Both the position numbers and the translations under genes were made by a program. This document shows positions 30,839 to 55,131 of a stretch of 64,000 nucleotides of DNA, piece after piece (the first letter of the stretch is position 1; each line of letters opens with the position of its first letter). This DNA is from an uncultured Croceitalea sp. (lineage in GTDB: Bacteria; Bacteroidota; Bacteroidia; Flavobacteriales; Flavobacteriaceae). Under the pieces are notes generated by a model. That model worked only from the letters and a program-made list of their open reading frames with translations. It did no database searches and was not told the origin of the DNA. Location: contig CANNDD010000007.1 in the NCBI GenBank assembly GCA_947503285.1, positions 124,001 through 188,000 of the forward strand, in the 5' to 3' direction.

Positions 30839-30846
30839 TATCTTTG
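30839..30846 (+). promoter_or_regulatory. -7 promoter element of rpsO
   Basis: TATCTTTG matches TAnnTTTG; the ATG is 54 bases downstream, leaving a leader of about 50 bases in which S15 autoregulation could act. No clear -33 TTTG was found. Confidence 0.5.
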
Positions 30847-30900
30847 CGCCCTGATTGAAAGACAGTCAGATACATAAAAATCATTTAAAACAATATTGGA

Positions 30901-31170
30901 ATGTATTTAACCAAAGAAGTAAAAGCCGAGATTTTCAAAAAGCACGGCGGTTCTGAAGGGAACACAGGTTCTACTGAGGGCCAGATAGCGTTGTTCACAC
31001 ATCGCATCAACCACCTAACCACCCATCTGAAAAAGAATCACAAAGACTACAATACCGAGCGTTCATTAGTGCGTCTGGTAGGTAAAAGACGATCACTTTT
31101 AGATTACTTGAAGAAAAAAGATATCGAAAAATACCGTTCATTGATCAAAGAATTAGGTATTAGAAAATAA
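30901..31170 (+). CDS. rpsO: 30S ribosomal protein S15
   Basis: An 89-residue S15, the standard length, with the rRNA-contacting motifs GSTEGQIALFTHRINHLTTHLK, the SLVRLVGKRRSLLDYLKK core and the basic C-terminus KELGIRK. It binds the 16S central domain early in 30S assembly. It lies upstream of pnp, the widespread rpsO-pnp order, but a strong terminator separates the two here. Confidence 0.98.
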   Translation: MYLTKEVKAEIFKKHGGSEGNTGSTEGQIALFTHRINHLTTHLKKNHKDYNTERSLVRLVGKRRSLLDYLKKKDIEKYRSLIKELGIRK

Positions 31171-42017: not shown

Positions 42018-42809
42018 TCAATAGATTGAGGATGCTTTCCCTAATTTTTCTATTCGGTCAACATCAATTTTTAGTACTTTCCAGTCACCCAGTTCACTCA
42101 GCTCGCCTAACAACTTTGCCGGTTGCCCAATAAAGGGCAGTATGTCTTGATGAATGGGTTCCCCCTTCAAATTAGTCAGCAAAAAATAGTCATCCGTTTC
42201 CTGTTCATTGGTGGCAACCAGTACCGGGGGTATACCCCCTGAAATACAGAGCGCCGCACAACTTCTGTGGATTTTTCCGAACCCGGGTTTCATCACCCCG
42301 AAATAACACTTGGGATCTACGATTTCACCCTCAAGTTCAATTTGACCAATTGACGAAGGTTTTTTGATTTCGTTCCTGTTTACTGAACCCGACAAGGTAA
42401 TCTTTTGACTATCGTCGATTTCAAGAAGCGTTTGCCCATTATAATAAATCAATTGGCCTTCAATGGTCAATGCCTTATTGACCAGGCTTCCGTTTTCACT
42501 TTTTATCGCATTCAGATACTGATTGGGACCAAACTTGCCAAATCCTAAAAGCAGTATATCCTTATAAATATCGTCTGCCAATTGAACGCGCAACATAGGA
42601 TAGGGCGTTTCATGATAAATGCCCGAGACCTTGGTAGGCTCATTAAAATCAAACGAACTGTTTACCGCTGTTTCTTGAAAGAAGGAAAACAAAAATCCAA
42701 CTACCACTAACGTAATAAGTGAATACAGCACAAAACGCTTTAACGTGGTCTTGGTTTCGGTACCCACCTCATCTACATATCCAATATAAAATTCATCATT
42801 CTTTTTCAT
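42018..42809 (-). CDS. Membrane-anchored protein with C-x15-C-x3-C motif, end of Rieske operon
   Basis: A 263-residue protein with one helix at about 25-46 (RFVLYSLITLVVVGFLFSFFQ) and a large extracytoplasmic domain. Two repeated beta segments read like OB-fold strands: LRVQLADDIYKDILLLGFG (residues 73-91) and ALTIEGQLIYYNGQTLLEID (113-132). The striking motif is DPKCYFGVMKPGFGKIHRSC (Cys168, His181, Cys184) followed by Cys188 and a Gly-Gly-Ile-Pro-Pro turn, which looks like a metal or haem-linkage site. I do not recognise the family. It is the last gene of the six-gene operon, 3 bases after the Rieske-cytochrome b gene. Confidence 0.72.
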   Translation of the reverse strand: MKKNDEFYIGYVDEVGTETKTTLKRFVLYSLITLVVVGFLFSFFQETAVNSSFDFNEPTKVSGIYHETPYPMLRVQLADDIYKDILLLGFGKFGPNQYLNAIKSENGSLVNKALTIEGQLIYYNGQTLLEIDDSQKITLSGSVNRNEIKKPSSIGQIELEGEIVDPKCYFGVMKPGFGKIHRSCAALCISGGIPPVLVATNEQETDDYFLLTNLKGEPIHQDILPFIGQPAKLLGELSELGDWKVLKIDVDRIEKLGKASSIY

Positions 42810-42812
42810 GGT

Positions 42813-43844
42813 CTAACAGGATATAGGGGTTACTTCAGTGCCTTCTTCATAAGCATTGGGGTTCACATAAACGAAACCATTGACTACCTTAAGTTGATAG
42901 GTTTTAACTTTCTCGGTAAAAGGTGGGGGTGACTGTCCATTGTGGGGTAAATACTGATACCCATGCCACGGACAGGTGATACAGCCATCAACTATCTTAC
43001 CTTCGCCCAAAGGCCCACCTTGATGCTTACATACATTATGAATCGCCGATAATTTACCCTCATTCTTAAAAACAGCGATACGTTCTCCTTCTACCGTAAA
43101 AATCTTTGCCCTGCTTTCTTCAATTTCACCTGTAGTACAGACTTCTAACCAACCATCACTATCCTTAGAAGCCTTGAAGCTATCTATTTTCCCTTCTTTA
43201 AATGCCGCCGTTAGATGAAGACCGGTAATGAGTACAAACCCCAAACACAAAACACCAATTGCGAAAGGCGAGGTTTCTTGTTGAAAAGCACCCAAAAAAA
43301 CGTGTAATACGATAAGTGAATAAGCTAGGTACACTAGCATATGAAGTCTTTTCCAGATCTTTGGGGATAGATTCTTCAAAAAGAAATCATGACTGGTAGA
43401 AGCCATTACAAATAGAATCAACAACGCCAAGAAGCCCAATACCTGAAAAGGAAAATTGGTCAGAGAACCATAATCCATATTGGAAGTAAAAATAGATTCA
43501 ATCGGGTTTTTACTTCCAAGGGTATGAAAATTAATAGTGGAGAAAACGCCATGAATCAAAGCGGCCAAAAACATACTCACGCCCAAATGCCTTCTATTAT
43601 AGAGAATAGGCAAATAGTTCGGGTTCAATCTGGTCAACGGACCTATCACCAAAATAAGGTGTAACAAAATAATGGCTAACGACCCAAAAGCCCGAATAAT
43701 GATGGTTTCAGCGGTCATCTCAGCATTGGTGACCAAACTCAACACAAAAAACACGATCAGGTATAGCACCATGCCCAGGGCAATCAACTTATCGTAGTTC
43801 TTTTTATGCTTATTCCACAATACCAGTTTATAATCGAGTCCCAT
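42813..43844 (-). CDS. Membrane cytochrome b-like protein (ferric reductase-like) fused to a C-terminal Rieske domain
   Basis: A 343-residue integral membrane protein. Residues 18-215 carry about five to six helices with several histidines suited to b-haem binding (His62, His86, His98, His107, His168, His181, His210), resembling the ferric-reductase-like/MsrQ superfamily. A linker leads to a Rieske domain at about 228-340 with ligand pairs Cys272/His274 (CKHQGGPLG) and Cys291/His294 (CPWHGYQY). This makes a direct path between a membrane haem and a [2Fe-2S] centre, so it is a likely electron bridge to or from the quinone pool. It shares 1 base with the upstream gene and is 3 bases from the last gene of the operon. 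Confidence 0.82.
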   Translation of the reverse strand: MGLDYKLVLWNKHKKNYDKLIALGMVLYLIVFFVLSLVTNAEMTAETIIIRAFGSLAIILLHLILVIGPLTRLNPNYLPILYNRRHLGVSMFLAALIHGVFSTINFHTLGSKNPIESIFTSNMDYGSLTNFPFQVLGFLALLILFVMASTSHDFFLKNLSPKIWKRLHMLVYLAYSLIVLHVFLGAFQQETSPFAIGVLCLGFVLITGLHLTAAFKEGKIDSFKASKDSDGWLEVCTTGEIEESRAKIFTVEGERIAVFKNEGKLSAIHNVCKHQGGPLGEGKIVDGCITCPWHGYQYLPHNGQSPPPFTEKVKTYQLKVVNGFVYVNPNAYEEGTEVTPISC

Positions 43845-44206
43845 TAAAAAGTAGTTGTATAGATGTTTTCATTCTTTATTTTGTCCACTATCGCAATTCC
43901 AGAGGCAGCCTCAGATACCTGGAATTCATAGGTTCCCTTGCCTTGAAGTTGCCCCATTACCTTACCCAATTTTCCGGCAGCATCAATTTCATACAATACG
44001 GATGAGGAGCTTGGTAGTGGCTTACTTAATGTAATCAATATCGTTCTGTCTTTTACCAGCTCAACCTTAAACTGTTCCGTAGTTTCAGTTGCTTTGATAT
44101 TAGCCGCGAAGTCTAGGTCTTTTATGGCAAAGAACAGTAGAATTGGAACCACCACTGCCATTAGTAACCAAACTAACTTATGTGCTTTTCGTTGCTTCGC
44201 TATCAT
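43844..44206 (-). CDS. Small single-pass membrane protein of the Rieske operon
   Basis: A 120-residue protein with one hydrophobic helix near the N-terminus (LVWLLMAVVVPILLFFAI, about 11-28) and an extracytoplasmic domain of alternating strands (TTEQFKVELVKDRTILITL, VLYEIDAAGKLGKVMGQL). No cofactor motif is visible. It overlaps the upstream 70-residue gene by 4 bases and the downstream cytochrome gene by 1 base, so its translation is coupled to both. An assembly or stabilising partner of the Rieske-cytochrome is a guess from this tight packing. Confidence 0.7.
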   Translation of the reverse strand: MIAKQRKAHKLVWLLMAVVVPILLFFAIKDLDFAANIKATETTEQFKVELVKDRTILITLSKPLPSSSSVLYEIDAAGKLGKVMGQLQGKGTYEFQVSEAASGIAIVDKIKNENIYTTTF

Positions 44207-44415
44207 ACCTTCTTTGATTGAAAAAGTTTACCTATCAGAAAAGGCCAAGTAGCTATGGTACCCGGTAGTAACAAGAGTCGCACCACTTTCTTACTTTCTT
44301 TCATTAAGGGGTCAATTGTCGTGGCCCCTGCAAATAGAAAGTACAATCCGAACAAAAGTCCGAGCCCGAAATACAGCCCCAAGGCAATTATGAATATATT
44401 GATCACTGTTTCCAT
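44203..44415 (-). CDS. Very small two-helix membrane protein of the Rieske operon
   Basis: Only 70 residues: one helix at about 3-28 (VINIFIIALGLYFGLGLLFG), a short loop (GATTIDPLMKESKK), then a second helix (VRLLLLPGTIATWPFLIG) and a basic end. The size and conserved tight linkage (1-base overlap with the Rieske-TPP gene, 4 bases with the next) support a real gene. The shape is like small accessory subunits of membrane oxidoreductases, but no family is recognised. Confidence 0.65.
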   Translation of the reverse strand: METVINIFIIALGLYFGLGLLFGLYFLFAGATTIDPLMKESKKVVRLLLLPGTIATWPFLIGKLFQSKKV

Positions 44416-46370
44416 TATATAAGATTTACATCTGTCATAATCTCTAATACTGCCGGGCCATCTTGAGCGAACATATTTCTCATTCCCTCTTCCAAAGCAT
44501 CTTCATTTTCAACCCGTTTGCCCCATGCCCCACATGATATGGCAAATTCTGCAAAGTTGGGATTAGATAGCGAAGTTTTCCAAACATCAAACTCCCCAGC
44601 TCGTTGTTCTTTTGAAATTTTACCCAATTCATGATTATTCAAAACAATCAACTTGACCGGCATTCGATACTTTACCAAGGTTGTGATTTCGGCCAGATAT
44701 TGACACAATCCGCCATCACCTGCTACAGCAACCACGGGTCTTGAATCACCAACGGCAGTCCATGCCCCGATAGCGGCAGGTAATGCAAAGCCAATTGACC
44801 CAAGATAGCCCGACATTAGAAAGTCTTGGTCAGTTGGTTCAAAATAGCGTCCAAAAGAATACGCGTTATTGCCCACATCAACACACATCACTGCATCTTT
44901 AGGGGTCAATGAGTTCATGGTTTCGAAAACGGCTATGGAACTAACACCTTTTTCTGAAGTTTCTAAAAGGCGCTTTGCTTTTTCTTCTTTCCAGATTTTC
45001 CAGCGTTCCGCAATTTCATGGGTTTGATCTTCGGTATTTATTTTTCCTCTAAGTTCATTTTCAAAAATACCCAGGGTCCTTGAAATCTCTCCCCAAACGG
45101 CGACTTCCACCTTATGGAATTTACTCAGGGCCATTGGGTCGAAATCAATCTGAATAATGGGTTTTTTAGGGGTAATACCGGTATGATTTGAAAAGGAGGC
45201 CCCAAATACGATCAAAAGGTCGGCTTCATTCATGAACCACGAGGCAATCGGGGTACCACTTCGCCCTAATACCCCCCCGCCTAAACGGTGATTATCGGCT
45301 ATGAGACCTTTTCCCTTAAATGTTGTCACTACCGCGGCATTCAAACTTTCTGCAAACTTGACAACGGCTTTTTTATGCGCCCTAGCCCCATGCCCCATAA
45401 TAATTACAGGGCGCTTGGCATTTTTAATACGTTCGATGGCCTCATTGACTGCTTCCTGTGGTGGCGCAATCTCCATTTGGGTGATACGCTTATCGGGTGT
45501 TTGTGCTTTTTCATTGGGCTTAGCCGGTTTCTCTTGCACCTCATCAGGGAATGTCAAATGCGAAACATCCCTTTTTAACAAGGCGGTTTTGACGGCTAAG
45601 GACATCAATTCAGCATGCTTACTATCACTTTGAACGCGTTGATTGAACTCAGCTACAGTACTAAACCCCCGCACCAAATCCACTTCTTGAAAATTTCCGG
45701 TACCAACGACCTGTGTCGCAACTTGACCGGTCAGTGCCAATAAGGGGGCTCGGTCTACCTTGGCATCCCACATACCGGTATACATATTGGTCGCCCCCGG
45801 ACCTGCAATTGAAAAACATGCGGCGGGTTTTCCAGTTAATTTGCCGTATGCGGAGGCTGCGAAGGCCGCAGCGCCTTCATGGCGAATTCCGTAAAAATTT
45901 AAATTTCCTTTTTCCTCTTGACGCTTCATAGCGTCTGCAAATCCGAGGTTCGAATGTCCCACCATTCCAAAAACCTTGGTTACCCCCCAATTTACCATAG
46001 TTTCAGCCATGATATCTGAAATTGTGGTTTGATGTACCTCTTCTTCTTCAACGCCGACATAGACCGCGTCTCCATCCTCTTTTACCACAAAGGTGTCAAT
46101 ACCATCGTCAAAACCACCAGGGGGCAATCCGGTACAAGGGTGAAAATCCCAACCATGCCAAGGGCATCGAAGCATTCCATTTTCTATGGATCCCTCACCC
46201 AACGGACCCCCTTGATGCGGGCATCTATTATCCAAGGCAGAAAATTTTCCTTCAAAATGGGTCAGGCATATTCCCTTATGGGCAGCGGTCACTGTTTTCA
46301 CCCTACCTTCTGGTAAGTCTTTTTTATGGTCCAGTACCTTATGCCAAACTATTTTTTTTGATTCACTCAT
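44415..46370 (-). CDS. Rieske domain fused to a thiamine-diphosphate-dependent enzyme
   Basis: A 651-residue fusion. Residues 1-110: Rieske [2Fe-2S] domain, ligands Cys50/His52 (CPHQGGPLG) and Cys69/His72 (CPWHGWDF). Residues 113-651: a full acetolactate-synthase/pyruvate-oxidase-like enzyme with PYR domain (catalytic Glu165 in RHEGAAAF, GPGATNMYTGM), central domain (VIIMGHGARAHKKAV) and PP domain with GDG...NN at 551-553 and 578-579. The catalytic Glu that is lost in glyoxylate carboligase is kept here. Reaction unknown; oxidative decarboxylation passing electrons to the Rieske centre is plausible. 10 bases after the previous gene and 1-base overlap with the next. Confidence 0.85.
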   Translation of the reverse strand: MSESKKIVWHKVLDHKKDLPEGRVKTVTAAHKGICLTHFEGKFSALDNRCPHQGGPLGEGSIENGMLRCPWHGWDFHPCTGLPPGGFDDGIDTFVVKEDGDAVYVGVEEEEVHQTTISDIMAETMVNWGVTKVFGMVGHSNLGFADAMKRQEEKGNLNFYGIRHEGAAAFAASAYGKLTGKPAACFSIAGPGATNMYTGMWDAKVDRAPLLALTGQVATQVVGTGNFQEVDLVRGFSTVAEFNQRVQSDSKHAELMSLAVKTALLKRDVSHLTFPDEVQEKPAKPNEKAQTPDKRITQMEIAPPQEAVNEAIERIKNAKRPVIIMGHGARAHKKAVVKFAESLNAAVVTTFKGKGLIADNHRLGGGVLGRSGTPIASWFMNEADLLIVFGASFSNHTGITPKKPIIQIDFDPMALSKFHKVEVAVWGEISRTLGIFENELRGKINTEDQTHEIAERWKIWKEEKAKRLLETSEKGVSSIAVFETMNSLTPKDAVMCVDVGNNAYSFGRYFEPTDQDFLMSGYLGSIGFALPAAIGAWTAVGDSRPVVAVAGDGGLCQYLAEITTLVKYRMPVKLIVLNNHELGKISKEQRAGEFDVWKTSLSNPNFAEFAISCGAWGKRVENEDALEEGMRNMFAQDGPAVLEIMTDVNLI

Positions 46371-46380
46371 TTTTTGTTGT

Positions 46381-47994
46381 TTAGTTTACCCCAGCAAAAG
46401 GAATTCCTGCCAGTTCATGCATTTCTTTCTTAAAAGTGGAGAGGTCATTATGATTGAATTTAGCAATATCATCATACCCACAAGAACGAGCGATTACCTT
46501 GATCAAATCATTGGTTGCATTAAAAAAGTTAGCCAACTGTTTTGCCGAGGTATCGATGATCAACCTACTTCGCAACGACTCTTTTTGTGTTGCGATACCT
46601 ACGGGGCAATTGTTCGAACCACAGGCCCGCATCCCCAAACAGCCAATCGCTTGTATGGCAGCATTGGAAACGGCAATGGCATCGGCACCCATCATCATGG
46701 CCTTCGCAAAATCTTCCGCGATACGTAAGCCACCGGTAATCACTAAAGTAACATCACTTGCCCCGACGCTATCCAAATACTTTCGAGCCCTTGCCAAGGC
46801 TGGAATCGTAGGTACATTAATGTTATCCCTGAGAATTGTTGGCGCTGAACCAGTTCCTCCTCCCCTACCATCCAATATGATGTAATCAACACCTACATCT
46901 AATGCAAATTGAATGTCTTTTTCAATATGGCTTGCGGCAATTTTAAAACCTACAGGTATACCACCTGTTCGCGCTCGAACTTTAGCGGCAAAATCCTTGA
47001 AATCATCCACGCCATGAAAATCAGGAAAGGTCGCGGGACTAATTGCGGTTTCCCCTTCATTCAGTCCACGAACCTCGGCAATTTCCTTACTCACCTTATT
47101 TCCGGGCAAATGTCCTCCTGTACCCGTCTTGGCCCCCTGACCTCCTTTAAAATGAAAGGCTTGAACATGGTCTAACTTATCCCATGTAAATCCAAATTTT
47201 GCGGATGCCAGTTCGTAGAAATACTTTGAGTTATTTTGTTGCTCTTCTGGTAAGATACCGCCTTCCCCGGAACAAATTCCAGTGCCAGCCATCTCAGCAC
47301 CTTTTGACAAAGCGATTTTAGCCTCTCTGGATAAAGCACCAAAACTCATATCACTAACAAAAAGGGGAATGTCCAATACCAATGGTTTTTTTGCTTTAGG
47401 GCCTATGACCACCTTTGTTGCTACCTCATCTTCATCCAACAACGGACGTGAGGCAAGTTGTGCCGGTAAAAATTGGATATCGGACCATTTTGGTAAGGTA
47501 TTTCTATCAACCCCCATGGAATCTGAAAAGCCGTGATGGCCCAGATTTTTCAATCCGTTTACCGCCAATTCCTTAATATATCCCGTATAAGGCTCCGTGT
47601 CTTCTGGATGGGTATCTTGGTAGGTCCCTAGATAGGCATCCCTATTGAAAGGTTGCGGATGTTGGATCTCAAAGGCAATCACTTCGTTTTCGTCGACTTT
47701 CAATGAATCCCCTTCAAGGTACTCTTGAAATTTGTGCAGTTGCTCGTCATTGTTATACTCGCTTATTCCAGTATCATAGCGGTAATCCCAACCGTGTACG
47801 CCACAGATTAAATTTTGACCGTCTATATGGCCATCGGCCAATAACGCACCTCTATGGTGACATCGGCCATAAAGTATTGAAATACCCGATTCATGCTTAA
47901 TAATGACTAAATCGGTATTTTTTACTAGGGCATATGCTGGTTCTTTTTCACGCAGTTCTGAAATTTTAGCAATTTCAATCAGCTTTTGGGTCAT
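46381..47994 (-). CDS. Rieske domain fused to an FMN/[3Fe-4S] glutamate-synthase-like enzyme
   Basis: A 537-residue fusion; the ATG at 47994 is preferred over a TTG one codon earlier. N-terminus: Rieske domain with Cys45/His47 (CHHRG) and Cys64/His67 (CGVHGW). C-terminal two thirds: the FMN-binding synthase barrel of glutamate synthase (MSFGALSREAKIALSKGA, GGQGAKTGTGGHLPGNK, GGRGGGTGSAP) with the Cys452-x5-Cys458-x4-Cys463 triad that binds a [3Fe-4S] cluster. There is no glutaminase domain. So three redox centres share one chain. First gene of the six-gene operon; 10 bases before the TPP fusion. Substrate unknown; reductive amination or amine-linked chemistry is possible. Confidence 0.85.
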   Translation of the reverse strand: MTQKLIEIAKISELREKEPAYALVKNTDLVIIKHESGISILYGRCHHRGALLADGHIDGQNLICGVHGWDYRYDTGISEYNNDEQLHKFQEYLEGDSLKVDENEVIAFEIQHPQPFNRDAYLGTYQDTHPEDTEPYTGYIKELAVNGLKNLGHHGFSDSMGVDRNTLPKWSDIQFLPAQLASRPLLDEDEVATKVVIGPKAKKPLVLDIPLFVSDMSFGALSREAKIALSKGAEMAGTGICSGEGGILPEEQQNNSKYFYELASAKFGFTWDKLDHVQAFHFKGGQGAKTGTGGHLPGNKVSKEIAEVRGLNEGETAISPATFPDFHGVDDFKDFAAKVRARTGGIPVGFKIAASHIEKDIQFALDVGVDYIILDGRGGGTGSAPTILRDNINVPTIPALARARKYLDSVGASDVTLVITGGLRIAEDFAKAMMMGADAIAVSNAAIQAIGCLGMRACGSNNCPVGIATQKESLRSRLIIDTSAKQLANFFNATNDLIKVIARSCGYDDIAKFNHNDLSTFKKEMHELAGIPFAGVN

Positions 47995-48210
47995 CAAGTC
48001 GGTTATTTTGGTGGTTACTATATTTAGGTCGGGATTCTCCCAACCACTTTACACCGTAATTTAACTTAAAAAAAGAAGAAATCGCACCAATCTGCACAAA
48101 TGAAAAAATAATCCAATATACGTATTCGCATACCCATTAAACCGTGTATGATGGTGAACCAGCATATCGTAAATCAAGGCAGCTTAAAATTGGCCATTAT
48201 CACTATTGAA

Positions 48211-49347
48211 CTATAGCATATTTCGCTCTAGTATCTTGGCAAAGTTAAAGGCCGCAAATTCAAGGTTATCGTAGCTCAAACGAAGGGCGTCGTCTAAGGT
48301 TCCTATATTTTTAAGTACGGAAGTCGCGTATGTAAGCCCCATTACCTCTTGTTCTTCGGGTGTCAGATCAATTGCACCACAAAATGCAGCAACCGGTATC
48401 CGTTGCTTTTTGGCAGATGCCACTACTCCGGAAATCGTTTTCCCTAAAAAGGTTTGACTATCCAATTTTCCCTCTCCTGTTATAATCCAATTTGCACCTT
48501 CAATGGCCGAATCGAAATCTGCAATCCCTTTTATCAAATCAATGCCAGAACTTAAGATTGCATTTAAAAAGACAACTGCACCGCCACCTACACCTCCAGC
48601 AGCACCTGAACCAGGTATTTGTTGTACATCAACCCCGAATTCATGCAATAGCACTTTCGCAAAATGCTTCAAGCCATTGTCTAAAAAGACAATATCTTCT
48701 TTAGAGGCCCCTTTTTGGCCTGCATAAATATGTGCCGCACCTTGCTCACCGTAAAAAGGATTGTTTACGTCACAGGCCACCTTGAAATTAGTACCTTTTA
48801 AACGTTTATGTACGTTTGATCTTTGTATGGTCTTGACCTTGATTAGGTTTTCGCCAATTGGTTTCAGCACCTCATCGTTTTCATCTAAAAATCCATATCC
48901 TAAGGCCACGGCGATACCCATTCCCCCATCATTGGTAGCGCTGCCCCCAATACCCAAAACAATAGTCTCCGCTCCATCTTCCAAAGCAGCTACGATAAGC
49001 TCTCCGGTACCTTGAGAGGTTGTAAACCTGCAATTTTTTTCGTCATCGGATAGCAGTTTATATCCAGATGCCTCTGACATTTCAATAAATGCCGTTTTCT
49101 TTTTTCTTGAATAAAGGTATTCCGCTTCAATGGTATTGAACAGTGGGTTTTTTACCAACTGCTTTTTTAACGAGGCTTCTAGGTAATCTTTGACCACCGC
49201 TATTGTTCCGTCGCCACCGTCAGCCAAGGGTTTCTTAATAATTTTGGGGTTCGAAAAAACCTTGCGCAGACCACTTTCCACAGCGTTACAGAATCCATCA
49301 CCTGAAAGTGACCCCTTGTATTTATCCGGTGCCAATACGAACTTCAT
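48211..49347 (-). CDS. Glycerate kinase (GlxK/GarK family)
   Basis: A 378-residue type I glycerate kinase, phosphorylating D-glycerate with ATP (2-kinase in most of this family). Diagnostic stretches: MKFVLAPDKYKGSLSG, LADGGDGTIAVV, IVLGIGGSATNDGGMGIAVALGYGF, GSGAAGGVGGGAVVFLNA, ITGEGKLDSQTFLGKT and CGAIDLTPEE. Length and motifs are complete. It lies between the sterol-desaturase-like gene and the Rieske operon on the same strand; the 213-base gap to the Rieske operon makes co-transcription uncertain. It would bring glycerate from serine, glyoxylate or sugar breakdown into glycolysis. Confidence 0.92.
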   Translation of the reverse strand: MKFVLAPDKYKGSLSGDGFCNAVESGLRKVFSNPKIIKKPLADGGDGTIAVVKDYLEASLKKQLVKNPLFNTIEAEYLYSRKKKTAFIEMSEASGYKLLSDDEKNCRFTTSQGTGELIVAALEDGAETIVLGIGGSATNDGGMGIAVALGYGFLDENDEVLKPIGENLIKVKTIQRSNVHKRLKGTNFKVACDVNNPFYGEQGAAHIYAGQKGASKEDIVFLDNGLKHFAKVLLHEFGVDVQQIPGSGAAGGVGGGAVVFLNAILSSGIDLIKGIADFDSAIEGANWIITGEGKLDSQTFLGKTISGVVASAKKQRIPVAAFCGAIDLTPEEQEVMGLTYATSVLKNIGTLDDALRLSYDNLEFAAFNFAKILERNML

Positions 49348-49448: not shown

Positions 49449-50336
49449 TTATGGGCTTTTAACCTTTTTTGGGTTGCCAAAACCGTAACTATTCTGATGC
49501 AGGAAATCTTTTGGAAACGCATCATCCCCAGGGAAACCAATTTCGACCGTGCCACTATCTTCTGGTATGTAATTGGTTTTAAAGATATAATCCCATAAAC
49601 TTAAGCTAATACCAAAATTAACACCATACGTACCTTTGGGAAGTTGATACGCATGGTGGTAAAGGTGCATCACCGGATTGTTGAATACATACTTTAAGGG
49701 ACCCCAGGTGATTTTAATATTCGCATGGTTCAAATGACCAATGGTAATAGCAGTGAAATGTACGATATAGGCCTGCTCAGGTTCAAATCCGCCAAGAAGC
49801 ATTACACCAAGGGTCTTTAGGGGCTTGTACAAAATGTTCTCCATCCAATGGTAACGTAGATGGGCGGCGAACCCCATTTCTTTGACGGAATGATGCACTT
49901 TATGGAAGTTCCACAAAAATTTATACTTATGCAGCATGATATGGGTAAACCATTGTACAAAATCCAAGATGACGAAGAAGATCACCAATTGCGCCCACAT
50001 CGGCATAGCCGATAAATCTAAAATAGTGAGGCTTTCAATCGAAATGCCGACGATTGTGAAAAATAGGGCCAACAATTTATAAAATCCACTAATTGCAATG
50101 GAAAACAAGAAAAAGTTAAAATACATATAAGCGGCATCCAACCAAAAATCCTTTCTAAATACCGCTTGTTCTTTTCGCCAAGGAAAAGCGATTTCCAAAA
50201 ACCAAACCACCAATGAAATTATGGTGAGACCCCAAAAATAATTGGTATACCAAGGCACTTCAAACAGAATGGATTTCCAGGTCCATTCCAAACTTCCCAT
50301 GAATGCATTGGCAAAGGCATTTAGATACTTATCCAT
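49449..50336 (-). CDS. Sterol desaturase/fatty acid hydroxylase superfamily membrane protein
   Basis: A 295-residue integral membrane di-iron enzyme. Hydrophobic helices lie at about 35-50, 70-98 and 110-132; the histidine clusters are HIMLHKYKFLWNFHKVHHS (HxxxH then HxxHH), then HLNHAN and the late HLYHHAYQLP. These mark the ERG3/ERG25 superfamily, which acts on lipids or isoprenoids. The substrate is unknown. It follows the cytochrome c gene after 3 bases, so it is likely translated from the sorAB message, which is odd for a desaturase. Confidence 0.82.
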   Translation of the reverse strand: MDKYLNAFANAFMGSLEWTWKSILFEVPWYTNYFWGLTIISLVVWFLEIAFPWRKEQAVFRKDFWLDAAYMYFNFFLFSIAISGFYKLLALFFTIVGISIESLTILDLSAMPMWAQLVIFFVILDFVQWFTHIMLHKYKFLWNFHKVHHSVKEMGFAAHLRYHWMENILYKPLKTLGVMLLGGFEPEQAYIVHFTAITIGHLNHANIKITWGPLKYVFNNPVMHLYHHAYQLPKGTYGVNFGISLSLWDYIFKTNYIPEDSGTVEIGFPGDDAFPKDFLHQNSYGFGNPKKVKSP

Positions 50337-50339
50337 AAC

Positions 50340-50819
50340 TTATTCTTCTAATTCGTACCAATCAATATCGGTCAATGTCGCCCTTCTCCCCTTTTTTCGG
50401 GGTGGATAGTTGGTTACCAAATAGTCTATTATAATTTCTTCATTTTTACCGAGATCCCATAGGTTCTGTGTTTCTTGCATCCACCGAATCGTGGCTAGCC
50501 AACTTTCTTTGTCCATTCTATTCTGGGTCACCAATTGTGCGGAATGGCAGTTGGTGCAATTATTGACCACTTCCATTAGTCCTGCAGCATCCACAAGTCC
50601 TGTTCTGACGTGTATTCCATTTTCAATCTTATCAAGATCTTCTTCGCTATCGATAATCGCATATTCCGTTACACTTGAGGTTTTTGTTGACAGTAATGTT
50701 TCATGATTGTAAATCGCATATACCATGAAAACACCTATAACTACAAATAATGCGAACGCTATGACCAAAAGCTTATAAATGGCCTTTATTTGTCGTCTTA
50801 TTTTTTGTTGCTTGTCCAT
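50340..50819 (-). CDS. Membrane-anchored mono-haem cytochrome c, likely SorB-like
   Basis: A 159-residue protein: N-terminal basic stretch and one helix at about 17-36 (LVIAFALFVVIGVFMVYAIY), then a domain with one CxxCH site at Cys88-Cys91-His92 (CTNCHS), and candidate distal ligand Met102 or Met114 (RMDKESWLATIRWMQ). The gene starts 4 bases after the sulfite dehydrogenase gene, matching the sorA-sorB order in which the cytochrome takes electrons from the molybdenum subunit. Anchoring in the membrane with the haem outside fits that role. Confidence 0.82.
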   Translation of the reverse strand: MDKQQKIRRQIKAIYKLLVIAFALFVVIGVFMVYAIYNHETLLSTKTSSVTEYAIIDSEEDLDKIENGIHVRTGLVDAAGLMEVVNNCTNCHSAQLVTQNRMDKESWLATIRWMQETQNLWDLGKNEEIIIDYLVTNYPPRKKGRRATLTDIDWYELEE

Positions 50820-50823
50820 AACC

Positions 50824-52044
50824 CTAAACCACTTTTACCGCTATTCGATGGCAAGCATTATTCAGATAACCCTTCGGATTCCAGCCCGGCAATACCATGG
50901 GTTGACCCACCCCTTGTGAATCTGTGGCACGGGCCCATACCTCATAGTAGCCTTTCTTAGGAAAACCGATACGTGCCGAAAAATGCTGCCATGCTAGGCG
51001 ATTTACGGGCTTTTCAATTGGGCATTCTTTCCAAGTAGCACCAAAATCAATGGAGTATTCCATTCGCGCGACCTCCAATTCCCCAGCCCAGGCATGTCCC
51101 CTTATATTCAATTTTTTTCCTTGTTTTAGCAGAGCCCCAGACTTCGGATAGGTGATTAGGGATTTTACGGGCATGGATTCAATAATGCACATAGCCTCAT
51201 CGTTTACCTTTTCACCGGGTGCAACGGTGTTACAAGGCACACGATACGCCGTGCCTGTCATTTTGGTACCATCATGTACCTTATTTCGAATACTGATCCT
51301 GTTCACCCATTTGCCTGAGACCGAAGCAGGCCAACCTCCAACGACCAACCGTAAGGGGTGACCATGGGCAAGGGGAATGGCCGCACCGTTCATTTGAAAT
51401 GCCAATAATGTTTCATCTTGCAAGGCTTTTGCCATGGGCACCCCTCTTGAAATGGGTTCCTTATTAGAGTCTCGGCTCAAGTGCGTATCAGCGGCATGAT
51501 ACCCGATATACACCGCATCATCTTTAATACCCGCATCTTCTAAGATATCACGTAATCGAATCCCCGTCCACGTAGCACAAGAGACGGCCCCTACCGTCCA
51601 TTGATTTCCTTTCGCCGGAGGATCGAACTCACTTCTACCATTGCCACCACATTCTAGGGTAAGTTGATAGGTATATTGCTGAAACTTTGATTTCAGTGCT
51701 GCAAGGGTATAGGTCTTTTCTTGTTTTGCCGACTCGCCATCTATGCGCAACGTCCATGTTCCAGCATCAATATTTTCTGGTATTAAGCCATTATTACGAA
51801 TGAACATCGCCTTATTTGGGGTAACCTTATCATTCAATAAATGTGCTTTGGCCTCAATATTCCAAGGTCTCTCGTTCAACACCACCATTTCATCATCCAA
51901 ACCGAACATTTTAAAAGGGTCAGGGTCTTGAAGTGCCAGTGGTTGATATCCTTTCGGAATTAGATTACCAAAAACGATATCAGCACCTAGTATACCTATC
52001 ATAGAGGCCAAGGTCGATTTTTTGATAAACTTTCTTCTTTCCAT
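50824..52044 (-). CDS. Sulfite-oxidase-type molybdopterin oxidoreductase (SorA-like)
   Basis: A 406-residue exported enzyme. The N-terminus MERRKFIKKSTLASMIG carries a twin-arginine-like motif, suitable for folded cofactor export. The molybdenum ligand is Cys156 in VGAVSCATWTGIRLRDIL; ECGGNGRSEFDPPAKG precedes it, and PLAHGHPLRLVVGGWPASVSGKWV is the pterin-site motif, followed by a C-terminal immunoglobulin-like dimerisation domain (MEYSIDFGATWKECPI). It likely oxidises sulfite to sulfate and passes electrons to the cytochrome encoded 4 bases on. Two palindromes lie upstream of the ATG. Other SUOX-fold activities (nitrate or methionine-sulfoxide reductases) are less likely because a cytochrome c gene follows. 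Confidence 0.83.
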   Translation of the reverse strand: MERRKFIKKSTLASMIGILGADIVFGNLIPKGYQPLALQDPDPFKMFGLDDEMVVLNERPWNIEAKAHLLNDKVTPNKAMFIRNNGLIPENIDAGTWTLRIDGESAKQEKTYTLAALKSKFQQYTYQLTLECGGNGRSEFDPPAKGNQWTVGAVSCATWTGIRLRDILEDAGIKDDAVYIGYHAADTHLSRDSNKEPISRGVPMAKALQDETLLAFQMNGAAIPLAHGHPLRLVVGGWPASVSGKWVNRISIRNKVHDGTKMTGTAYRVPCNTVAPGEKVNDEAMCIIESMPVKSLITYPKSGALLKQGKKLNIRGHAWAGELEVARMEYSIDFGATWKECPIEKPVNRLAWQHFSARIGFPKKGYYEVWARATDSQGVGQPMVLPGWNPKGYLNNACHRIAVKVV

Positions 52045-52497: not shown

Positions 52498-55131
52498 ATG
52501 AACCTACCTTCAGAAGAACATAACCGATTGCAACAACACTATTCCAACAAAAAGGATTGGCTAAAATGGGGCCCATACCTTAGTGAACGTCAATGGGGAA
52601 CCGTACGGGAAGACTATAGCGAAAATGGGGACGCATGGAACTATTTACCACATGACCACGCCAGAAGTCGTGCATACCGATGGGGTGAAGATGGCATAGC
52701 GGGTATATCGGATCGTTACTGTAATATTTGTTTCGGTATTGCACTATGGAACCGAAAAGATCCTATTTTAAAAGAGCGGTTATTTGGGCTTACCGGCCCC
52801 CAAGGTAATCACGGTGAAGACGTTAAAGAGCTTTACTATTATCTTGAAAATACACCGACCCACTCGTATATGAAACATTTATACAAGTACCCACAAAATG
52901 AATTTCCGTACACGAAATTGGAGGAAGAAAATCGAAAACGGGGGAAACGTGAGGGTGAATTCGAATTACTTGATACGGGTATTTTCGATACCAACGAATA
53001 CTTTGATGTATATACCGAATACGCCAAAGGCGAAGCTGAAGACCTTTTAATAAAAATCACGATAAGCAATCGCGCTTCGGTAGCGGCACCAGTTGTGCTA
53101 CTTCCAACAATGTGGATACGGAACTTTTGGAGCTTTACGGGAATGCCCAAAAAACCCGTTATCAAATCAAATGGGGATACCAATACTCCATATGTGTCCA
53201 TCGATCATACTTATGTAGGGAACTATTTTCTTCATTTTGAAAAACCATCCAAACTACTTTTTACGGAGAATGAGACCAACAGCGAACGCATATTTAACTT
53301 TGGTAATGACCATCCCTTTAAAAAAGACCTATTCCATGATGCCGTAATCAACGATGACTATTCATTGGCTGAAAAAAATAAAGAGGGAACAAAATTCGCC
53401 CCACTCTATGAATTGGAAATTCCCGCGGGGCAAACCAAGACTATTAAATTAAGGTTCGCGAAAAGTATTTTAAAGTCGCCGTTCGATGATTCTTTTGACA
53501 CCTTATTTTCTAAAAGGGCGAAAGAATCAAAAGTATTTTTAGAGGCCATTACGGCTAAATCAGCCAAAGAACAACAAAAGATTCAAAGACAAGCTTTTGC
53601 CGGTTTACTCTGGTCGAAACAATACTACAATTATGATGTGGAACAATGGTTGAATGGAGATGATGGCCATACGCCGCCAAGCAACCGAAAAAACGGGCGT
53701 AATAGCGGCTGGACCACCTTACGTAATCATGACATACTGCTTATGCCCGATGCTTGGGAGTACCCATGGTTTGCGGCATGGGACAGTGCTTTTCACTGTG
53801 TAACCTACGCCATGTTGGATCCTGATTTTGCCAAACAACAATTATTGTTGTTTACCAAAGAATGGTATATGGCCCCAAATGGCCAAATACCTGCCTATGA
53901 ATGGAACTTTAGCGATGTGAATCCGCCTGTTCAAGCTTGGGCCGCCATTCAAGTCTATCAAATAGAACAACGAATGACGGGCAAAAAGGACCTGAAGTTT
54001 TTGAAACGGATGTTCAATAAATTGGCACTCAATTTCACATGGTGGGTCAACCGGGAAGACAGCTCCAATAAGAATATTTTTGAGGGTGGTTTCTTAGGAT
54101 TGGACAATATTGGGGTTTTTGATCGAAGTAATGGTGTGCCCGGCGGTGGGATTTTAGAACAGGTTGACGGAACTTCTTGGATGGCACTCTATTGTTTGAA
54201 CATGCTTGAAATGGCCCTTGAAATCGCTTTAGAAGATGAGGCCTTCGAAGATATGGCCATCAAATATTTCGGTCATTTTGTTTTTATTGCAGAGGCACTG
54301 AACAAATTGCAGGAAGGGGCCCCTAGCGCATGGGATGAGAAAGAAGGATTTTTCTACGATACGCTCATTTTACCTGATGGTCGATCAATACCCATAAAAG
54401 TGCGCTCTATTTCAGGTCTTTTATCAATAACCGCCGTTTTGAATATCAAAAAGGAAAAATTGGATAGACTGCCTCGATTTCGAAGTAGCATGGAGTGGTT
54501 TAGAAAATACCGGGCCAAAACCCTTAAGTATACAGTGATTGAAGAATATAGTCTAGAAAAAGATGTTTTGCTTTCATTGGTGCCTAGAAAACGCCTGCAT
54601 ACCTTGATCAACACCATATTGGACGAATCGGAGTTTTTGAGCGATTACGGTATTCGTTCGTTGTCAAAAAGACATGAAAATCCGTATTATGTACAAATCA
54701 ATGAAACCACCTATTGTATCAATTATGAACCCGCCGAATCAACGACAAATATGTTCGGGGGTAACTCAAACTGGCGTGGACCTATATGGATGCCAATGAA
54801 CTACCTGTTCATCAACACGTTAAAAGAATACCACAACCATTTTAAGGATGATTTAAAGTTCACTTATCCATCAAACGGAAACAACCAATTAAATCTTAAG
54901 GAAATTGCCAATGAAATCAGCAGGCGATTGATAAGCATCTTTGAAAATGATGAACACGGCGACCGCCCTGTCAATAACCCATATCAAAAGAAGTATCGCG
55001 ACGAAAATTTTAAAGATCTTATTTTGTTCTTTGAATATTTTGATGGAAACAATGGTAGGGGTGTTGGCGCAGCGCATCAAACGGGATGGACCGCCCTAGT
55101 GGCCAATTTAATCGAGGAAATCAACTGCTGA
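52498..55131 (+). CDS. Large glycosidase of the MGH1-like/GH63-related family
   Basis: An 877-residue protein with no signal peptide, so cytosolic. The N-terminal half is a beta-sandwich-like region; the C-terminal half (about 360-870) is an (alpha/alpha)6 barrel recognisable from WDSAFHCVTYAMLDPDFAKQQLLLF, NGQIPAYEWNFSDVNPPVQAW, LEQVDGTSWMALYCLNMLEMAL and GNSNWRGPIWMPMNYLF, typical of GH63/mannosylglycerate-hydrolase-like proteins. It could release glucose or mannose from an alpha-linked glycoside or glycerate glycoside. A candidate acid is Asp in the DGTSW motif; I did not confirm it. Free-standing gene, divergent from the sulfite oxidation genes. Its substrate is unknown. Confidence 0.78.
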   Translation: MNLPSEEHNRLQQHYSNKKDWLKWGPYLSERQWGTVREDYSENGDAWNYLPHDHARSRAYRWGEDGIAGISDRYCNICFGIALWNRKDPILKERLFGLTGPQGNHGEDVKELYYYLENTPTHSYMKHLYKYPQNEFPYTKLEEENRKRGKREGEFELLDTGIFDTNEYFDVYTEYAKGEAEDLLIKITISNRASVAAPVVLLPTMWIRNFWSFTGMPKKPVIKSNGDTNTPYVSIDHTYVGNYFLHFEKPSKLLFTENETNSERIFNFGNDHPFKKDLFHDAVINDDYSLAEKNKEGTKFAPLYELEIPAGQTKTIKLRFAKSILKSPFDDSFDTLFSKRAKESKVFLEAITAKSAKEQQKIQRQAFAGLLWSKQYYNYDVEQWLNGDDGHTPPSNRKNGRNSGWTTLRNHDILLMPDAWEYPWFAAWDSAFHCVTYAMLDPDFAKQQLLLFTKEWYMAPNGQIPAYEWNFSDVNPPVQAWAAIQVYQIEQRMTGKKDLKFLKRMFNKLALNFTWWVNREDSSNKNIFEGGFLGLDNIGVFDRSNGVPGGGILEQVDGTSWMALYCLNMLEMALEIALEDEAFEDMAIKYFGHFVFIAEALNKLQEGAPSAWDEKEGFFYDTLILPDGRSIPIKVRSISGLLSITAVLNIKKEKLDRLPRFRSSMEWFRKYRAKTLKYTVIEEYSLEKDVLLSLVPRKRLHTLINTILDESEFLSDYGIRSLSKRHENPYYVQINETTYCINYEPAESTTNMFGGNSNWRGPIWMPMNYLFINTLKEYHNHFKDDLKFTYPSNGNNQLNLKEIANEISRRLISIFENDEHGDRPVNNPYQKKYRDENFKDLILFFEYFDGNNGRGVGAAHQTGWTALVANLIEEINC

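Follow-up and report, generated by a model that had tools for sequence, protein, structure and literature searches.

The window (the whole 64,000-nucleotide stretch analysed, part of contig CANNDD010000007.1 in the 4.34-Mb genome of an uncultured Croceitalea sp.) carries six tightly packed minus-strand genes, here named A to F, that run from position 47994 down to 42018 (Table 1). Three of them encode a Rieske domain fused each time to a different partner: a glutamate-synthase-type barrel of the flavin mononucleotide (FMN)/[3Fe-4S] kind in A, a thiamine-diphosphate (ThDP) enzyme in B and a ferric-reductase-domain (FRD) cytochrome in E. We give an even chance to the reading that the six genes specify a modular transmembrane electron-transfer system. 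The intergenic distances are +10 (A-B), -1 (B-C), -4 (C-D), -1 (D-E) and +3 (E-F) nucleotides, with the start of A taken as the ATG at 47994 (the lister of open reading frames, ORFs, begins at the TTG at 47997). ORFs and Pfam matches confirm what an earlier note on this DNA had claimed, namely three one-strand genes with distinct Rieske fusions at gaps of -4 to +10, and the two small membrane proteins (C and D) and the Cys-motif membrane protein (F) that it had described are present according to ORFs, hydropathy and the motif of F. An Rfam scan gave no match inside the operon.

The Rieske ligands, whose conservation the earlier note had made a test of its reading, are kept in homologues of all three proteins. 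In A they are C45-x-H47...C64-x2-H67, and the pattern C-x-H...C-x2-H was found in 55/55 full-length relatives of A and in 89/89 relatives of E; for B it was found in 66/66 relatives when a 5-residue insertion was allowed in one, and in 65/66 otherwise. A tree was made from a short alignment in which A, B and E were each represented by 15 rows, the window's own and 14 drawn at random from the 55, 66 and 89, next to five soluble Rieske proteins obtained from ten loci tried. The domains of A, B and E formed separate groups (support 100/99, 96/82 and 88/86, respectively), with a long branch parting the A domain from those of B and E, and a recent local duplication of one Rieske domain was rejected on this basis.

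E matched Ferric_reduct (E-value 9.7e-15) and Rieske (1.6e-17) in Pfam. Its hydropathy profile has six hydrophobic segments, and its N-terminus is positively charged; with six transmembrane (TM) segments and the N-terminus inside, the Rieske domain should be cytoplasmic. Residues R84, R85, H86, H98, H107, H152, H168 and H181 are invariant in all 34 aligned sequences, and H62 is kept in 33 of them. According to the passages of PMC3591440 that treat these proteins, an arginine in TM3 together with the equivalents of His 115, 209 and 222 marks YedZ and STEAP1, which probably bind one haem close to the outer face. E carries this signature as R85, H98, H168 and H181 (34/34, matched by spacing), so that electron passage to F through one membrane haem, as in MsrPQ, fits better than a quinone link. 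In the structure model of E (pLDDT 79.2), the Rieske part resembles the CarAc and BphA3 ferredoxins, and Foldseek on the model showed the fold of oxygenase-type Rieske ferredoxins. Two other readings of E were rejected. A cytochrome bc complex is disfavoured by the lack of any match to a bc-type cytochrome b in Pfam or NCBIfam at an E-value of 0.01, and a Rieske oxygenase by the confinement of all oxygenase matches (Pfam, NCBIfam and PDB) to the C-terminal Rieske part, from about residue 214. Among the best 80 loci, the nearest named relative of E comes from an uncultured Croceitalea (84% identity).

A matched Rieske (2e-11) and Glu_synthase (1.2e-85) in Pfam. Its [3Fe-4S] cysteines, C452-x5-C458-x4-C463, have the spacing of the aligned glutamate synthases, and C-x5-C-x4-C is kept in 55/55 relatives. 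Pfam detected no glutamine amidotransferase domain in A, which has the N-terminal Rieske domain instead. The QGAKPGEGGQLPG segment of glutamate synthases is replaced by QGAKTGTGGHLPG in the window's A, with the His invariant in 13/13 aligned sequences, suggesting that the substrate may not be 2-oxoglutarate. The barrel is also found behind other electron-carrying modules. Tandem CDGSH motifs, absent from A, precede a barrel about 64-66% identical to that of the window in L051:5823-7334 and L205:5680-7230 (Vibrio fortis plasmid), and, as read by eye, one or more N-terminal rubredoxin-like domains precede it in L065:10831-12330 and L066:9028-10617, with rubrerythrin-like genes nearby. The N-terminal domain of A therefore looks like an exchangeable electron plug. 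As a separate observation, a 14-kb contig of genome G001 encodes a second A-like protein (L050:5105-6739) that has lost the Rieske ligands; by eye, it is adjoined by conjugation-type genes.

B matched Rieske (2.3e-15) and the N, M and C domains of TPP_enzyme (1.1e-32, 1e-33 and 1.2e-31) in Pfam. The RHE motif with the catalytic Glu is present in 66/66 relatives and FQE or FQQ in 65/66, the Mycobacteroides copy having FQD. The ThDP motif GDG...NN is present in 61/66; it reads GDG...DN in Mycobacteroides, and SDG with ND or TD in four haloarchaeal copies. The closest solved relative in a PDB search was PoxB, a quinone-reducing enzyme. The alignment covers PoxB residues 3-526 of 572 and leaves six residues of B past its end, indicating that the C-terminal end of PoxB (about 40 residues), which is its membrane-binding part, is missing from B; hydropathy showed no hydrophobic segment in B. 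By homology, B would probably use a redox-active flavin adenine dinucleotide (FAD) and may be specific for pyruvate. Keto-acid oxidation, one of two activities put forward in the earlier note, is plausible for B, given PoxB as its closest solved relative; the other, amine oxidation by the system, found no support. Some irregular copies were also seen. In genome G086, B (L110:6248-8200) is interrupted by a stop codon into pieces of 450 and 167 aa, and the F match (L110:9798-10553) was counted with one TAA; B of genome G234 has one TGA. On Rhizobium plasmids, C-E-F has a ThDP enzyme gene about 3 kb away on the other strand, beside a CoA-transferase gene; its product (L203:5054-6685 and L204:5094-6722, about 542 aa) is not long enough to be a Rieske fusion.

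C, D and F matched no Pfam family at an E-value of 0.01. H9 and W13 of D are invariant in 40/40 aligned sequences. F keeps the motif C-x12-H-x2-C-x3-C in 79/79 relatives, and hydropathy predicts a single-TM protein with its bulk facing outward; its model (pLDDT 89.8) shows a TM helix followed by two beta-rich domains. We did not retain a known metalloprotein as a candidate for F, the sole PDB sequence match up to an E-value of 1 being a chance-level superoxide reductase (0.9). In NCBIfam, no match of A or E reached its curated cut-off, nor did any of the best 25 of the 57 for B, so A, B and E are not recognised members of the named families.

Table 1. Genes of the operon, with positions in the window
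Gene	Product	Positions	Strand	Basis
A	N-terminal Rieske + glutamate-synthase-type FMN/[3Fe-4S] barrel, 537 aa	46381..47994	-	Pfam, alignment, PDB matches to GltS large chains
B	N-terminal Rieske + ThDP enzyme nearest pyruvate oxidases, 651 aa	44415..46370	-	Pfam, NCBIfam ranking, PDB, motifs, hydropathy
C	Membrane protein of 70 aa with two hydrophobic stretches	44203..44415	-	ORF, hydropathy, E-locus co-occurrence
D	120-aa protein, single hydrophobic segment	43844..44206	-	ORF, hydropathy, 40-sequence alignment
E	Predicted six-TM ferric-reductase-domain cytochrome + C-terminal Rieske, 343 aa	42813..43844	-	Pfam, hydropathy, 34-sequence alignment, structure model
F	Predicted N-terminal TM anchor + two OB-like domains, 263 aa	42018..42809	-	Motif conservation, structure model, Foldseek

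The gene set recurs in other genomes. Named genomes were scanned with an alignment of E, and the best 80 of at least 557 relatives (at least 585 stretches) were used, which biases the sample towards close relatives; several of the 80 loci are cut by contig ends. A gene was counted when the profile match extended over more than 60% of the model, and the all-six count was made at 50% coverage. Besides E itself, F was present in 79 loci, C in 78, D in 66, B in 52 and A in 45; E, C and F thus form a nearly invariant unit. All six genes were present on one strand in 38 of the 80 loci, which had been brought in with E alone, and the best match of C, D, F, B or A lay on the strand of E in every locus holding both. 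Distances of 50 nt or less were found for D-E in 62/66 loci, for E-F in 71/79 and for B-C in 45/52.

The genes were also counted in a family sample and a phylum sample. With one genome per genus of the family (n=149) and A counted as full-length rows, A was found in 18 genomes, B in 14 and E in 9, while F was found in the nine E genomes and as one weak match. E occurred with B in 9/9 genomes and with A in 8/9, and B occurred with A in 12/14; in these 12 genomes A and B lie within about 2.5 kb on the same strand. Fisher tests gave 2.6e-11 for E-B, 9.8e-12 for A-B and 7.4e-8 for A-E, the genera being related and the trials therefore not independent. In the phylum sample (n=296, full-length rows), A was found in 37 genomes, E in 10 and B in 8; the other 36 of 46 genomes in the E search matched the Rieske part alone. 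A was present in 9/10 of these E genomes and in 7/8 B genomes. Four genomes of this sample (G192, G271, G282 and G333) have the cluster A-C-E-F, with no B at an E-value of 1e-100.

These data suggest the following mechanism. B would use ThDP, and probably FAD, to oxidise pyruvate or a related 2-oxo acid, and its Rieske domain would take up single electrons, doing the job of the absent membrane-binding tail of PoxB. A would be an enzyme with a flavin and a [3Fe-4S] cluster whose substrate is an amino or oxo acid; because its Rieske domain sits where an amidotransferase domain usually does, it could exchange electrons with the same partners, possibly in the reverse direction. The cytoplasmic Rieske domain of E would serve as the docking and entry site for electrons, and one b haem near the outer face, as in YedZ, STEAP and MsrQ, would pass them outward to the periplasm; there F, through its putative Cys3His site, and D would receive or use them. 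C and D may be accessory membrane subunits. The simplest chain would therefore run from the Rieske domain of B (and A) to that of E, on to the haem of E and out to F. The broader proposal of a new class, a 'Rieske bus', in which such plugs let unrelated cytoplasmic enzymes discharge single electrons through a YedZ-type cytochrome to a periplasmic Cys3His protein, its modules being reused from haloarchaea to rhizobia, is tentative, and we rate it somewhat below even.

Several results weigh against a transmembrane chain of this kind. All 50 Foldseek matches listed for E were Rieske proteins, so the FRD fold is unconfirmed by structure, and those of F were weak, being tandem-OB proteins with TM-scores of 0.2-0.3, one of them below an E-value of 0.001. 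In the family sample A occurred without E in 10/18 genomes and without B in 6/18, and B without E in 5/14 (G079, G051, G090, G096 and G018). In G079, E may merely be cut off, since the contig ends just after C and D; no C to F was found beside B in the other four (2.2 kb was left to inspect in G051). In the phylum sample just 5/10 E genomes had B. B was absent from 28 of the 80 E loci, and among 27 of these genomes searched, 8 had B elsewhere and 19 had none; A was absent from 35 loci, and among 34 genomes searched, 11 had it elsewhere and 23 had none (the L141 genome has A inside the locus, and the L165 genome lay outside the A search). Many of the genomes searched are draft metagenome-assembled genomes. 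With so many E genomes without them, A and B cannot be the sole electron sources of E. Finally, haloarchaeal stretches hold A and B without any match to E or F. The earlier note had proposed a six-gene co-occurrence check, and its outcome is divided: a conserved, close-packed set stands, with all six genes in 38/80 loci, and one obligatory unit does not, the genes forming nested modules.

A rival reading is a pair of co-regulated systems without electron exchange: a soluble A+B Rieske pair, whose partners would be a CPA1-type Na+/H+ antiporter, an ion channel and a DUF5996-like protein, and a membrane reductase formed independently by C-D-E-F. In three haloarchaea A and B share a plasmid, at distances of about 1.4, 4 and 17 kb, without E or F, and on the Halorarius plasmid a sodium:proton antiporter gene follows B directly and is followed by a potassium-channel gene, as in flavobacteria. 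Around A/B, the CPA1-type antiporter was present in 37/80 loci, and an ion-channel protein was found there too. In the stretches examined from Acidobacteria and Rhizobium, C-E-F is unaccompanied by A/B. In G102, A-B and C-D-E-F are about 346 kb apart on one contig, and A-B occurs without E in G090, G096 and G051. This alternative is possible but rather unlikely in our judgement. Against it, E was always accompanied by B in the family sample, B and C are mostly within 50 nt of each other, and one type of one-electron domain is common to A, B and E. Other occurrences are B without A on a Haloferax plasmid and on a Mycobacteroides plasmid, E and F on five Rhizobium plasmids, and E in 8/151 genomes of the class of the L176 genome ('Acidobacteria bacterium'). 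Since they recur apart, the two soluble enzymes and the membrane module give the impression of reusable components. The plasmid genes are annotated as 'glutamate synthase-related protein', 'thiamine pyrophosphate-binding protein', 'Rieske 2Fe-2S domain-containing protein' and 'hypothetical protein'.

Another possibility is that A works as a reductase: B would oxidise pyruvate and pass electrons from its Rieske domain to the Rieske domain, [3Fe-4S] cluster and FMN of A for the formation of an amino acid, and E would merely vent or supply electrons. Glutamate synthases do run reductively from ferredoxin, A and B are found together in two domains of life, and CDGSH or rubredoxin-like domains can take the place of Rieske in front of the barrel of A. 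However, A lacks an ammonia-generating domain, QGAKTGTGGHLPG stands where GltS has QGAKPGEGGQLPG, so that the substrate may differ, and a third of the family genomes with A (6/18) have no B, which makes this scheme unlikely. It is quite improbable that A and B belong to a respiratory dehydrogenase whose electrons enter the quinone pool through E, a link that the earlier note had favoured and for which we found no specific evidence: PoxB reduces quinone and MsrQ is quinone-linked in Escherichia coli, but B lacks the membrane-binding end of PoxB, the membrane part of E is Ferric_reduct and no bc-type cytochrome b family, and the YedZ/STEAP Arg/His signature and the outward-predicted, single-TM constant partner F fit electron export better.

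The genes around the modules suggest, from neighbourhood alone, a connection with redox, metal or ion stress, and we would place the role of the proposed electron-transfer system there and not in bulk respiration. Around A/B, Pfam strongly matched DUF5996 to proteins of L061 and L240; three x1 proteins of the flavobacterial type were also compared with DUF5996, of which one reached an E-value of 0.007, below the cut-off, and two had no match. NAD(P)H-hydrate epimerase lies around A/B in L246 (NCBIfam) and, by eye, in L049 and L053, and is annotated on Halorubrum and Haloferax plasmids; a Crp-type regulator was present in 16/80 loci. Around C-E-F we found a YHS (seleno)protein in 36/80 loci, a LysE-type protein in 29/80 and a DinB-like protein in 28/80, as well as SDR proteins. 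YHS and DinB-like proteins were found in Acidobacteria stretches too, and a DoxX-like protein in one Acidobacteria stretch with C-E-F and on a Rhizobium plasmid. A more specific role in copper or electrophile stress was considered and set aside, as nothing here separates it from other redox roles. Two further neighbours may be recorded. A PycTM (Pycsar effector) domain protein (L251:4750-5415) lies beside the Na+/H+ antiporter and A/B, and proteins like it were seen by eye in 7/80 E loci. In 9/80 loci (L165, L168, L175, L179, L182, L187, L190, L193 and L195), a gene no more than eight genes away from E, mostly just upstream of C, encodes a protein of about 540 aa that looks subtilisin-like by eye, with a CxxC region at the N-terminus.

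The operon itself contains no MsrP molybdoenzyme. Elsewhere in the window, positions 50824-52044 hold a molybdoenzyme gene, four genes upstream of A, whose product is SorA-like (229 bits, cut-off 600; 32.4 bits for MsrP, cut-off 207). Together with a SorB-like cytochrome c gene it forms a sulfite dehydrogenase-like pair at 50340-52044, both members scoring below the NCBIfam cut-offs; an OlsE-like fatty-acid hydroxylase (49449-50336) and a glycerate kinase (48211-49347) lie between this pair and A. An 877-aa protein (52498-55131) resembles, by eye, a family of about 890 aa found near E in 5/80 loci and in a further Acidobacteria stretch (L237). An S15-Flavobacteria ribosomal protein leader (RF03161, 75.9 bits) is located at 30839-30903.

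If the proposed chain works, central metabolism in the form of 2-oxo acid and amino acid chemistry would be wired to the periplasm through Rieske domains, and the use of these domains would extend beyond oxygenases, NirD-like proteins and bc complexes. It would give testable roles to the unannotated conserved families C, D, F and DUF5996-like, and to the 'glutamate synthase-related' and 'thiamine pyrophosphate-binding' proteins of haloarchaea and bacteria. In the open-licence PMC literature we found no paper naming a Rieske-ThDP protein, a Rieske-glutamate-synthase protein or this operon, and no described system with three Rieske fusions together, as the earlier note had supposed. The MliR regulon in the relevant part of PMC9478572 offers no parallel, its Rieske/cytochrome c pair being taken as bc1 and respiratory, and the architecture is not described in the passages of PMC5449189 on Sec/Tat-inserted Rieske proteins or in those of PMC5676040. 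The FRD+Rieske fusion (PMC3591440) and the CDGSH+glutamate-synthase fusion (PMC3174974) are already in print.

Comparison with known systems shows which parts are shared. A has the FMN/[3Fe-4S] barrel of the GltS large chain and of type 5 CDGSH proteins. Glutamate synthase has an amidotransferase domain that A lacks and a segment that is altered in A. Type 5 CDGSH proteins, in the relevant passage of PMC3174974, place another 2Fe-2S module, CDGSH, ahead of the glutamate synthase FMN domain, where A carries Rieske. B shares with PoxB the ThDP fold (three TPP domains) and the catalytic Glu, but has an added N-terminal Rieske domain and no C-terminal tail, and reaches 303.2 bits against a cut-off of 792 for the NCBIfam ubiquinone-dependent pyruvate dehydrogenase. 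E shares with MsrQ/YedZ the six-TM ferric reductase domain with its Arg/His pattern, although it scores 42.6 bits where the MsrQ equivalog of NCBIfam has a cut-off of 130. MsrPQ/YedYZ also has a periplasmic-facing partner, as F is predicted to be for E, but that partner is the molybdoenzyme MsrP, whereas F is a Cys3His tandem-OB-like protein. NOX and FRE proteins have a FAD/NAD(P)H dehydrogenase domain, whereas Pfam shows solely Ferric_reduct and Rieske in E; the cytoplasmic input of MsrPQ, STEAP and NOX is quinone, a flavin reductase or NADPH/FAD, and that of E would be its fused Rieske domain. A close published architecture is M4, given in the Fig. 3 legend of PMC3591440 as an FRD fused to Rieske, as in E, and also listed with an FMN symbol; the passages that mention M4 give it no operon, partners or function. 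We would place the operon with transmembrane electron transfer by FRD cytochromes, with a real chance that it represents a new class.

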